Assembly: GCA_009692345.1 (NCBI GenBank)
Contig: SHZI01000007.1
Location: forward strand, 1 to 51,166
DNA length: 51,166 nt
Source: Gammaproteobacteria bacterium
Lineage (GTDB): Bacteria; Pseudomonadota; Gammaproteobacteria; Steroidobacterales; GCA-2729495
Direction: 5' to 3'
Positions 28,468 through 33,644 of the stretch are shown in pieces. The number at the start of each line of letters is the position of its first letter. Positions within the stretch are counted from its first letter, which is position 1. The translations under genes and the position numbers were made by a program. The notes under the pieces are model-generated. The model worked only from the letters and a program-made list of their open reading frames with translations, was not told where the DNA came from and did no database searches.

Positions 28468-29535
28468 CTAGCCGGTTGCAATGCGACTGAGGATTGCGTC
28501 ACCCATCGCCCGCGTACTTACGGGGGCATGCCCTGGAACAGCGATATCAGCCGTCCGCTGGCCACCTTCAATGGCGGCCAGCACCGCAGTCTCAATCCGC
28601 TGCGCTTCCGCCTCGAGGCCCAGGGAATGGCGAAGGAGCATGGCGGCGCTGAGAATGGTCCCACAGGGATTCGCCTTGCCCTGACCGGCAATATCGGGCG
28701 CGGAGCCATGGATAGGCTCATACAGACCCTGCTTGCCGTCGCCCAGCGCCGCCGAGGGCAGCATTCCCAGGGATCCGGTAAGCATGGAAGCCTCGTCCGT
28801 CAGAATGTCGCCGAACATGTTCTCAGTGACTATGACGTCAAAGTCGGACGCACGGGACAGGAGGTGCATGGCAGCGGCGTCGACCAGCAGATGCTCGACC
28901 TGCAGTCCGGGAAACTCCCGGGCATACAGTTCCACAGCAACAGAGCGCCAGAGTCTGGAGGTCTCAAGAACATTGGCTTTATCCACAGAAGTCACCTTTC
29001 GCCGACGCTGCATTGCCAGTCGCCCGGCCATGCGCAGTACCCTCTCGATCTCTGGCCGGGAGTAGGTGCAGACGTCAGTGGCGGAGGTGTCGGTTCGTTC
29101 CTTACGACCAAAGTAGATTCCACCGGTAAGCTCACGAATTACAAGGATATCTACGCCGGCCAGGCGCTCGGGTTTTAGCGGTGAGGAGGCGTACAGCGAG
29201 GGGTGAGTAACCACGGGCCGGAGATTTGCGTAAACGGCCATGGCGGCCCGCATGTCCAGTAATCCCTGCTCCGGCCGCACAGGCGCGTCCGGACTGCTCC
29301 ACTTCGGACCACCCACCGCCCCGAGCAAGACGGCATCTGCTGCCGCGCAAAGTTGGCGGGTGTCCGCCGGAAACGCAGAGCCTGTTGCATCGATGGCAGC
29401 GCCGCCGATCAGCCCCTCGCGAAACTCAAACTTGTGTGAGTGCCTGGTCCCGATCGCTTGCAGGACCCGGACCGCTTCCGCCGTGACTTCAGGTCCGATG
29501 CCATCGCCAGCCAGTATCCCGATCAGGGCTGCCAC
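28468..29535 (-). CDS. leuB: 3-isopropylmalate dehydrogenase
   Basis: [48 protein letters not shown]. Confidence 0.96.
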
Positions 29536-30107
29536 GAGCGCGCACCCTCGAAACGCGTGATGGCATCTGCGTGGTCGAGCAGGTAACCCAACTGGTCCAC
29601 ACCATTTATCAGGCAGTAACGGGAGAAGCCATCGATGGGAAAGGTGACGGTCCGCCCCTCTGGGAGTCGCAGCTCGCAGGCGGCGACGTCCACTGTGACA
29701 TCGGCGCCTGGATTCTCGATCAGCCAGCCGTGGGTCGTCTTATCGACGATGACCGGCACAAGGCCATTCTTCAGGGAGTTACCGCGGAAGATATCTGCGA
29801 TCTCGGTGCTGATCACGGCGCGGATACCGAAATCGAGTAGTGCCCAGGGGGCGTGTTCCCGGGACGAACCGCAGCCAAAGTTGTTCCCTGCCACCAGGAT
29901 TCCGCAGCCGTCTGCTTCCGGGCGATTCAACAGGAAGTCTGGTTTTGGTTTGCCGGCGGAGTCATAGCGCCAGTCCGCAAAAAGGGCTTTACCCAGGCCC
30001 TTGCGGGTGGTTGTCGTCAGAAAGCGGGCGGGAATGATCTGGTCGGTATCGATGTCCGACTGGGGAATGACCAGCGTCCGCGACTGCACAAGATTTACTT
30101 TGTCCAT
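29523..30107 (-). CDS. leuD: 3-isopropylmalate dehydratase small subunit
   Basis: [30 protein letters not shown]. Confidence 0.96.
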
Positions 30108-30118
30108 GGAACTCTTTC

Positions 30119-31525
30119 TTAATGGGCAATGAGGGGCCGGGGATCAGCAATCCGGCCTGCGACGGCGGACGCAGCGGCGGTCAGTGGACTGGCCAGCACG
30201 GTCCGGGCTCCGATGCCCTGGCGACCCTCGAAGTTTCGGTTACTTGTGCTGACACACAGCTGACCGCTTGCGGTCAGATCGCCGTTCATGCCGATGCACA
30301 TGGAGCACCCGGCTTCGCGCCACTCAGCGCCAGCGGCGGTAAAGACTTCGTGAAGTCCCTCGGCTTCGGCTGCGCGCTTGACCTGTTCAGAGCCGGGGAC
30401 CACAAGCATACGCACCGACTTGGCTACCTTTCGGCCCCGCATGACGCTGGCAGCTTCACGCAGATCGGACAGGCGCGAGTTGGTGCAACTGCCGATGAAA
30501 ACCACATCCACCGGCATCCCGAGCATGGGCTTGTTCTCTACAACGCGCATGTACTCCAGCGCCTTACGGAAGCTGGCGTCCGTTGCGGTGGGGACCGGAT
30601 CCCCGATGGGTATGACCATTCCCGGGTTGGTCCCGAAAGTGACCATGGGAGTCAGCAGATTGGCGTCAAGGGTGACCTCCCGATCAAAAGTAGCATCCGG
30701 GTCTGACGGTAGTCGCCGCCAGCGGGCCACGGCGGCATCCCACGCGGAACCCTTGGGAGCCTTGGGACGATTTCTCAGGTACTCGATAGTCGTGTCGTCT
30801 GGAGCAATCATGCCCGCCCTTGCGCCACCTTCTATCGACATATTGCAGACGGTCATGCGCTGTTCCATGTTCAGGTTCTGAATGGCACTGCCGCGATACT
30901 CGATGACGTGGCCCGTACCGCCGCCAACGCCGATTCTGCCGATGATGGCGAGGATGATGTCCTTGGCGGTTACGCCTGCACCGATCTTTCCATCGACAGT
31001 GATGGCCAGGGTTTTCGGCCGGCGCTGCAGCAGGCACTGGGAAGCCATTACGTGGCCGACTTCGGTGGTGCCGATGCCAAACGCGAGAGTCCCGAATGCA
31101 CCGTGTGTGCTCGTATGACTGTCGCCGCAGACAATGGTTTTTCCAGGCTGGGTTATTCCGAGTTCCGGGCCGATCACATGCACGATGCCGCGCGCGTCGC
31201 TGTCAAAGCCAAACAGTTCAACCCCGTACTCCCGGCAGTTTTCGATCATCAGGCGAATCTGTGCGGCCGCCGCCGGCTCGGCGACAATGTCCAGGTCCTT
31301 CAGTGATGCAACCGGGACGGTTGGAGTCGAGTGATCGAGCGTTGCCAGCGTGAGGTCGGGGCGCCTCAGCTTCAGCCCCCTGGATCTGAGCACCGAGAAC
31401 GCCTGGGGAGACGTCACTTCGTGGGTGAGATGCAGGTCGATGTAGAGCACCGCCGGCGTATCGGCGGTCTCTGGTACAACGATGTGGTCATCCCAGATCT
31501 TCTGGAAAAGCGACTTGCCGGTCAT
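30119..31525 (-). CDS. leuC: 3-isopropylmalate dehydratase large subunit
   Basis: [65 protein letters not shown]. Confidence 0.96.
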
Positions 31526-31572
31526 TTTATCAGTTCCTGACAAAGCAGTTGATGAGAGTGGATGGGTCACAG

Positions 31573-32532
31573 TCACTGGCGACTGGCTGTCTGTCCCTGG
31601 GCCGGTATATCCAGGGGTTCCAGCCAGCTCCATTTGTCGACTGTTTTGCCGCTGAACAGGCCAAAAAAGGCGTCCTGCAGCAGCTTGGTGATTGGCCCTC
31701 GGGAGCCGGCGCCAACCGTCAGTCTGTCCACGGAACGGACCGGCGTGATTTCTGCTGCTGTTCCAGTGAGGAATATCTCGTCCGCGATGTACATCAGTTC
31801 CCGTGGCAAGACCTGTTCCCGGACTTCTATGCCCAGTTCACGAGCCAAGATGATGACACTGTCCCGGGTGATACCGAGGAGAATTGACGCCGCAGCCGGC
31901 GGTGTAATGAGCACCCCATCCCGGACTAGGAACAGGTTCTCTCCCGCACCCTCGCTGACTGTACCGTCCGTTCCAAGCGCGATGCCTTCAGCAAAGCCCC
32001 GGTCCCTTGCCTCCCAGCCGACGAGCGTGCTCGACAGATAGTTGCCCCCCGCCTTGGCCAGGGCAGGTATCGTATTGGGCGCGATCCGTTGCCATGACGA
32101 GACGCAGACATCGACACCCTTCTCGAGGGCCTCCGGTCCGAGGTATGCACCCCATTCCCAGGCGGCAATGGCCAGTTCCACTGGGTGGCCAGGTTTTGGC
32201 ACGACGCCGACTTCGCCAAAGCCCCGGTACGCGAGTGGGCGAATGTAGGCGCTCTTCAGGCCATTACGCAGGACGACCTCTTTGCAGGCTGCGTTGATTT
32301 CCACGGCCGTCCAGGGGATCTCGATGCGATGGATCTTGGCTGAATCGAGCAGCCTTCGCGTGTGTGCCTGCAACCGGAATACCATGGTGCCGGACGGCGT
32401 CGCGTAGGCCCTCACCCCCTCGAAAACCGAGGATCCATAGTGCAGGGCATGACTCAAGACGTGCACCGTGGCGTTGTGCCAGGGCACCAGTTTTCCGTTA
32501 TGCCAGATCCATTCTGTGGTTTTGATGGCCAT
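31573..32532 (-). CDS. ilvE: branched-chain amino acid aminotransferase
   Basis: [50 protein letters not shown]. Confidence 0.96.
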
Positions 32533-32543
32533 TGGTAGTCCTC

Positions 32544-32931
32544 TTACAGGCGTACGACCTTATCGCCGGGAGAGCCGGCAACGGCACGGCCAGCCGACCG
32601 ACCGACTGGCCGACTGGCCGACTTGTGGCAGACACGACTAAGCACATCCAGACAGGCGAGGGCGCCGGCTTCGACTATGTCGGTGCTGACACGGGGGCCC
32701 CGATGAGTTGGCCCATTATAGTCCACGGTTACCGCGACCTCTCCCTGGGCGTCTTCGTCCATGGTCACACTGCGGACTTCAAGATTCTCCAGATCTCGGT
32801 CGCACGCTCAAGCGCGAAGCAACGCTCAGCTTTTCACCCAGGGTGATCCTGCCGCCTGGGGCCTCCTCGCCGTCCCGAAGAGTGGTATCGACGATCAGTA
32901 CCGGGCCCTGCTGCGGAATGCTAACGGCCAT
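32544..32931 (-). pseudogene. leuA: 2-isopropylmalate synthase remnant (N- and C-terminal ends only, frameshifted)
   Basis: MAVSIPQQGPVLIVDTTLRDGEEAPGGRITLGEKLSVASRL, then out of frame LENLEVRSVTMDEDAQGEVAVTVDYNGPTHRGPRVSTDIVEAGALACLDVLSR; catalytic barrel missing. Confidence 0.75.
32602..32622. repeat. 8-bp tandem repeat ccgactgg (2.6 copies)
   Basis: Read directly within the tail of the leuA remnant. Confidence 0.9.
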
Positions 32932-32997: not shown

Positions 32998-33034
32998 AAA
33001 AAAAAGACCCCGTCACCTTGCCGATGCGTGGTCT
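32998..33034 (-). terminator. intrinsic terminator upstream of the leuA remnant (candidate attenuator terminator)
   Basis: Minus strand AGACCACGCATC-GGCAA-GGTGACGGGGTCT followed by a T-run (8 A on + strand, 32998-33005). Confidence 0.8.
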
Positions 33035-33060
33035 CGTTGACTCGTTGGATAATCAGCCGG

Positions 33061-33153
33061 TCAGGGGCCCGCATCCCGGACCGGTACCCGATAATCCGGT
33101 GCCAGATCGATTCCCACGGACAGGCTGACTCCCACGGACAGGCGAAAAACCAC
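33061..33153 (-). promoter_or_regulatory. candidate branched-chain amino acid leader peptide ORF
   Basis: GTG-initiated MVFRLSVGVSLSVGIDLAPDYRVPVRDAGP-stop behind GGAAGG; 10 of 30 residues are L/V/I, concentrated in codons 2-17. Confidence 0.55.
33112..33143. repeat. 18-bp tandem duplication (tcccacggacaggctgac, about 1.8 copies) inside the candidate leader ORF
   Basis: Read directly: tcccacggacaggctgac tcccacggacaggc. Confidence 0.93.
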
Positions 33154-33323
33154 CGGAGTGCCTTCCGAGTTGGCCTGTCAGCGTGCTTTTGGGGAGGCGA
33201 TTTCCGTGGCAAATGATAGTCAGGTACCCCGTCGGGGTTGTCAACCGCCTCCCCACGTCCCCATGCTATTCTGGCCACGCGTTGCGGCACCTGCGGCGCG
33301 GCGCTGATCTTCACTGGAAACGC

Positions 33324-33644
33324 ATGCCCCGAGTTATTTTTCATGATGTTGACGGTCGACGGATCGAGGCTGATGTGAGCGCTGGCAATACAGTGATGGA
33401 GGGTGCTCTGGACAACGGCGTAGCCGGCATCCTGGCAGAGTGCGGGGGCGCGTGTGCCTGTGCCACCTGCCACGCTTACGTCGCAGAGGCCTGGCTGCCC
33501 CGACTCAAGCCCCTTGAAGACATGGAGGACGCCATGCTCGATTCGACTCTGGAGCGTCGTCCCGCCAGTCGCCTGATGTGCCAGATTGAGCTGAATGCGG
33601 AACTCGACGGGCTTGAGGTCTTCATCGCGCGAAACGAGTCCTGA
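33324..33644 (+). CDS. 2Fe-2S ferredoxin (adrenodoxin/P450-partner type)
   Basis: MPRVIFHDVDGRRIEADVSAGNTVMEGALDNGVAGILAECGGACACATCHAYV...RLMCQIEL cysteine pattern. Confidence 0.93.
   Translation: MPRVIFHDVDGRRIEADVSAGNTVMEGALDNGVAGILAECGGACACATCHAYVAEAWLPRLKPLEDMEDAMLDSTLERRPASRLMCQIELNAELDGLEVFIARNES

Follow-up and report, generated by a model that had tools for sequence, protein, structure and literature searches.

A degenerate, probably decaying copy of a family-wide leucine attenuator upstream of ilvE-leuCDB in a gammaproteobacterium with a leuA pseudogene

The leader upstream of ilvE-leuCDB in the window (the whole stretch of 51,166 nucleotides of gammaproteobacterial DNA analyzed here) is, in our judgment, probably a degenerate and decaying copy of a leucine attenuator that occurs throughout the organism's family. 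A first-pass annotation had described it as a branched-chain amino acid (BCAA) attenuator, which is the right kind of element in the wrong working state: the leader is homologous to the leucine attenuators predicted in relatives, including the positions of its stop codon and antiterminator, but the window's copy does not appear to be in working order. The evidence throughout is sequence, from a sample of draft genomes that are mostly metagenome assembled. The leader and its border consist of the following elements.

33327-33644, plus strand: divergent 2Fe-2S ferredoxin-like gene bordering the leader (fdx_isc match below its cut-off)
33239-33244, minus strand: TTGACA, −35 element of the leader promoter P1
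33216-33221, minus strand: GACTAT, −10-like element, after a 17-nt spacer
33205-33207, minus strand: site of the ancestral leader-peptide start codon, now ACG (ATG in sister genome G002)
33178-33180, minus strand: in-frame TGA stop at codon 10 of the ancestral leader frame (nonsense codon)
33061-33153, minus strand: GTG open reading frame (ORF) of 30 codons, peptide MVFRLSVGVSLSVGIDLAPDYRVPVRDAGP, with its stop codon TGA (33063-33061) inside CCCCTGACCGGCTGAT
33109-33143, minus strand: tandem repeat of two 17-nt copies at a spacing of 18 (33109-33125 and 33127-33143), doubling V/L codons of the GTG ORF
33002-33091, minus strand: full-length match to R1, the leader model of the family (positions 1-94 of 94 in the model; 58.2 bits; E value, 5.3e-14)
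33052-33076, minus strand: homologue of the antiterminator 5′ strand with the stop region (GATGCGGGCCCCTGACCGGCTGA), placed by the R1 alignment
32998-33035, minus strand: intrinsic terminator (stem, 33035-33004) with a T8 tail (33005-32998)

The covariance model R1 was built from 14 relatives with the window left out, and the alignment behind it also leaves out three short-loop sequences and G005. A search with this model retrieved the leader from most genomes of the same family and gave weaker hits in a further five families of the order; sister genome G002 gave no R1 match and has neither the terminator nor a GTG start. The window's leader is also orthologous in place, with the same promoter and the same divergent ferredoxin gene adjoining, and on these alignments it shares ancestry with leaders found throughout its gammaproteobacterial family. 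Both promoter elements named by the first-pass annotation are present, the TTGACA at 33244-33239 rather than near 33241. Of the 22 leaders compared, 21 have TTGAC at the homologous place (the exception is G025), the −10-like site reads GACCAT, GAACAT or GAATAT in relatives, and P1 transcription is predicted to start near 33209. A generic consensus promoter and terminator scan listed neither the leader promoter nor the terminator and was set aside as evidence. Folding of the whole leader gave only ordinary stability (z = −0.90), and Rfam, at gathering and relaxed thresholds, reported only tRNAs in the window and no leader family in the relatives. Unremarkable folding and the missing Rfam match would suit an arrangement that arose by chance, without descent from an attenuator, but an R1 match with an E value of 5e-14 at an orthologous place, behind the same promoter and beside the same ferredoxin gene, refutes that explanation, to which we give practically no credence.

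In the relatives, the leaders look like classic ribosome-mediated leucine attenuators upstream of leuA-ilvE-leuCDB, with a leucine-run peptide, an antiterminator and a terminator all present before leuA. Comparative alignment of the leaders upstream of leuA/ilvE, as the first-pass annotation had envisaged, recovered this family-wide element: the leader ORFs contain a leucine run (e.g., those ending in ILVLLLLLASREKRWCGHQTG, MRLFTISASSFGLPLVLRSLGAGV or MSYTTVFQTIADRAPGVGRILVLLLLLASREKRWCGHQTG before the stop codon), and they share the TTGACA promoter, the antiterminator strand GGTGCGG and a terminator of the form CCCCGCACC...GGTxGCGGGGTTTTTT. The antiterminator helix, GGTGCGG:CCGCACC, beats shuffles in most leaders (z from −1.1 to −5.8), and two of its pairs are changed on both sides (AAGCGG:CCGCTT in G020), with none in the terminator, which among 14 related sequences is modest support. 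In most same-family genomes leuA precedes ilvE; the leader is found ahead of leuA or, in operons that open with ilvC, at a site still further upstream. In most leaders of family f1, and in f2 and f7, the leader ATG lies 35 to 38 nt from the start of TTGACA; since this is the predicted transcription start, these leader peptides are predicted to be leaderless or nearly so. The distance is about 55 to 59 nt in most f6 and f16 leaders. Loci L119, L123, L124, L136, L158-L183, L198-L200 and L202 thus present the same attenuator with leaderless (predicted) and with led initiation. In the R1-matching leaders L190, L201 and L203, which belong to f16 and f12, the runs mix Leu, Ile and Val, as in ALLSIVLLSLVLVLLIRNWSGII.

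In these relatives, RNA polymerase would begin transcription on the ATG of the leucine-run peptide or no more than a few bases away. A ribosome stalled in the leucine run would leave GGTGCGG free to pair with CCGCACC, so that leuA-ilvE-leuCDB is read, and one that runs on to the stop codon would cover the GGTGCGG segment, so that the CCCCGC/GCGGGG terminator forms and transcription ends. The enterobacterial leucine operon attenuator (leuL type) has a leucine-rich leader peptide and an antiterminator/terminator switch upstream of the leu genes, and attenuators in proteobacteria were reportedly predicted by Vitreschak et al. in 2004 (as cited in PMC1262725). The relatives' leaders share with the leuL type the leucine-rich peptide, the switch and the position upstream of leuA and leuCDB, but ilvE lies within their operon, their ATG is predicted at the 5′ end, and they match no Rfam model; the window's copy differs further in lacking the leader start and leucine run and in its broken leuA.

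Leaderless or nearly leaderless leader peptides are already known, and the leucine leaders predicted here would add to them. In the ilvBNC attenuator of Corynebacterium glutamicum, the leader-peptide start lies one nucleotide from the transcription start (PMC11857589, PMC4046766). The relatives resemble it in having a start predicted at or near the 5′ end, BCAA control codons and a terminator/antiterminator pair, but organism and operon are unrelated, its control codons are mixed V/L/I in contrast to the relatives' leucine runs, and the 5′-end start has been lost in the window. In Sinorhizobium meliloti, the first bases of the trpL leader transcript (rnTrpL) are the ATG of its peptide (PMC7298713), as predicted for the relatives here, although that leader responds to tryptophan, belongs to an alphaproteobacterium and also gives rise to a trans-acting RNA and peptide.

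In the window, the leader peptide has lost both its start and its leucine run. The ACG and the ATG of G002 both stand 18 codons before the GTG (GTC in G002), with no indel, and at the family position (33 to 45 nt from TTGACA) the window leader, locus L184, has no usable start with an ORF of more than 8 codons. Reading in frame from the ACG gives TEIASPKAR, the nonsense codon and then QANSEGTPVVFRLS, that is, QANSEGTP up to the GTG followed by VVFRLSVGVSLSVGIDLAPDYRVPVRDAGP and the stop. The nonsense changes are separate in the two sister genomes, G002 having TAG at codon 11. The GTG ORF is what is left of the 3′ part of the ancestral leader ORF, lengthened by a tandem repeat of 18 nt; its frame and stop are those of the MRLFTISASSFGLPLVLRSLGAGV ORFs of same-genus relatives. 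It retains 3 Leu in 30 codons, none adjacent, compared with up to 6 in a row in relatives.

The first-pass annotation had taken this GTG ORF for the sensing peptide. Its limits and its stop inside CCCCTGACCGGCTGAT are as described, and its V/L/I richness exceeds chance, being found in 0.2% of 2000 dinucleotide shuffles (a post hoc figure), partly because of the tandem repeat. Since a GGAAGG also lies upstream of this unusually V/L/I-rich frame, translation is possible, which counts against decay. A working BCAA attenuator that starts at the GTG at 33153, with V/L/I codons that sense Val, Leu and Ile jointly so that ilvE-leuCDB answers to all three, would account for this richness, and it would also fit the frame and stop kept from the ancestral leader, a terminator conserved beyond neutral expectation (see below), the mixed V/L/I runs seen elsewhere in the order, in f12 and f16, and the precedent of mixed codons in the C. 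glutamicum ilvBNC leader, MTIIRLVVVTARRLP (PMC11857589). On this reading, the attenuator would have been re-tuned instead of lost: an unlinked second 2-isopropylmalate synthase (IPMS) gene, leuA2, next to an Lrp-type gene, displaced leuA, after which a new internal GTG and the tandem repeat turned the leucine-run leader into a mixed Val/Leu/Ile one. It has to contend with the loss of the relatives' start and the nonsense codon in between, with the contribution of the repeat to the V/L/I content, with an antiterminator no stronger than chance, and with a sister genome that has neither GTG start nor terminator. We regard a re-tuned attenuator as possible but rather unlikely, and clearly less likely than a decaying leucine attenuator. 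The proposal that this leader works in the enterobacterial way with interspersed control codons is at odds with an ATG that is now ACG, a nonsense codon at position 10, a vanished leucine run and a leuA pseudogene; the interspersed codons are what is left of the ancestral peptide plus the tandem repeat, and in the nearest relative the terminator is missing and a separate nonsense codon interrupts the frame.

The window's antiterminator pairing, GATGCG:CGCATC, lies at the homologous place, as had been proposed, and looks like a matched change, which runs counter to simple decay. Its duplex energy of −13.4 kcal/mol, however, is at chance level when the upstream piece is shuffled (z = +0.49); these energies are for trimmed arms with a shuffle control, untrimmed arms having given inflated values. 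Similarly, the terminator with its T8 tail is real, but the clean 12-bp stem once assigned to it is interrupted by an A·G mismatch and a bulge. Two changes, C to A (the A·G mismatch) and C to U (a wobble), have weakened it to −14.2 kcal/mol, the second weakest of 22 leaders compared, with relatives at −17.4 to −23.3 kcal/mol except G025 at −13.0. Even so, it carries only 3 window-specific changes in 38 nt versus the roughly 11 that the 4-fold rate of this branch would give (P between about 0.001 and 0.05 for the different rates assumed), suggesting that selection acted until recently or still acts, and that relaxation is recent or incomplete.

A T8 terminator kept beyond neutral expectation behind a lost leader-peptide start could alternatively mean that the element has settled as a constitutive partial terminator, with no role for a leader peptide, a fixed read-through under selection and the rest supplied by a candidate internal promoter, P2. 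The genome G007, in which a terminator stands directly before ilvE without a leucine leader, offers a parallel state. Such an arrangement is hard to tell apart from decay by sequence, but a terminator weaker than in relatives and deleted in the sister genome speaks against it, and we hold it to be improbable, somewhat more so than the re-tuned attenuator. Decay of a leucine attenuator remains our preferred reading, and the state of the operon itself bears on it.

32567-32931 (outer limits approximate), minus strand: leuA pseudogene (leuA_bact type), codons ~2-32 joined to ~431-493, frameshifted and with stops
32715-32720, minus strand: TATAAT in the leuA 3′ remnant, candidate P2 for ilvE-leuCDB (nucleotide-level conservation in intact leuA)
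31573-32532, minus strand: ilvE, intact branched-chain aminotransferase (NF005146, 429 bits; TIGR01122, 420 bits; both over cut-off)
30119-31633, minus strand: leuC (TIGR00170, 649 bits)
29523-30107, minus strand: leuD (TIGR00171, 188 bits)
28468-29535, minus strand: leuB (TIGR00169, 461 bits)

The leu/ilvE/his cluster of the first-pass annotation is borne out for ilvE, leuC, leuD, leuB, hisG and hisD, which together with a YerC/TrpR-like gene are intact, on the same strand and all over curated cut-offs, but leuA is a remnant only. By TIGR00973, its pieces match model positions 2-32 at 32901-32809 and 431-493 at 32828-32640 in different frames, leaving about 31 and 63 codons with some 400 missing, and the window's genome holds no other leuA_bact copy over cut-off. 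The 3′ remnant (32627-32780, minus strand) reads as a piece of the C-terminal regulatory domain of LeuA, with about 78% DNA identity to the gene of G003; at this level, either leuA was lost recently or this part of it is under constraint. With leuA destroyed and the sensor peptide broken, the switch looks mid-decay rather than new.

In the window's genome, G000, a second-type IPMS gene, leuA2, is found unlinked to ilvE-leuCDB, at G000:C35 (NF002991, 804 bits, over cut-off; TIGR00970, 695.4 bits, just under its cut-off of 697.4). An assignment of this second LeuA-like gene as citramalate synthase (TIGR00977) was rejected, as no genome scored over that cut-off, and it is an IPMS of the TIGR00970/NF002991 type. 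An Lrp/AsnC-type gene, assigned by reading the frame by eye, lies divergent to leuA2, and no attenuator was seen upstream of leuA2. The leuA2 loci recorded are L154 (1920-3617, minus strand) and L155-L157, with an Lrp/AsnC-type gene beside it where looked at. All 7 of the 7 genomes without leuA before ilvE carry leuA2, the window's genome among them. Within the window's genus, G001 and G003-G006 hold both genes, and in genus g4 the leuA-keeping G017, G023 and G036 have no leuA2. The IlvE tree, in which the intact G003 is sister to G000 plus G002, requires at least three changes, pointing to independent leuA losses on at least three occasions; leuA would thus have been displaced at least three times by an unlinked and perhaps differently regulated leuA2. 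In G007 (L134), leuA has been cleanly removed, and the leader promoter and a strong terminator lie directly before ilvE. This leader lacks both a leucine run and an ATG at the leaderless position, making it, as far as the alignment goes, a second, independent instance of a terminator kept after the leucine leader peptide has gone.

The TATAAT corresponds to leuA codons 487-488, Tyr-Asn in the numbering of the G003 query, and is seen, e.g., in L133 and L119. Asn488 is AAT in 25/28 sequences, the highest T-ending fraction among 79 two-codon columns, and Tyr487 is TAT in 17/24 intact leuA genes, the highest of the tyrosine columns, the sequences being related and thus non-independent in both counts. 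The hexamer is kept in 6/7 leuA-loss genomes, 49 to 188 nt before ilvE, the exception being G007, whose leader promoter is next to ilvE. No good −35 element was seen for P2. Conservation of this TATAAT at the nucleotide level, beyond that of the amino acids, suggests an internal promoter close to the 3′ end of leuA that would bypass the attenuator.

We propose that, in the window's lineage, leuA2, a second IPMS gene elsewhere in the genome and beside an Lrp/AsnC-type regulator, probably made leuA dispensable. On this order of events, leuA would then have been internally deleted, and the leader peptide would have decayed through the ATG-to-ACG change, the nonsense codon and the loss of the leucine run. 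The weakened terminator remains, and some P1 transcripts probably end at it irrespective of leucine; ilvE-leuCDB is probably also transcribed from P2. With the sensor broken and the terminator retained, the leucine response has probably been lost, leaving partial termination and a P2 bypass.

The window and its relatives amount to a natural experiment, in which the same attenuator stands before an intact, a deleted and a cleanly removed leuA, and all of the at least three independent leuA losses occurred in genomes holding a second IPMS. The comparison also brings to light a group of leucine leaders predicted to be leaderless, together with a conserved candidate internal promoter. The replacement of leuA in this family shows how a sensing leader may decay once the enzyme that it governed has been replaced.
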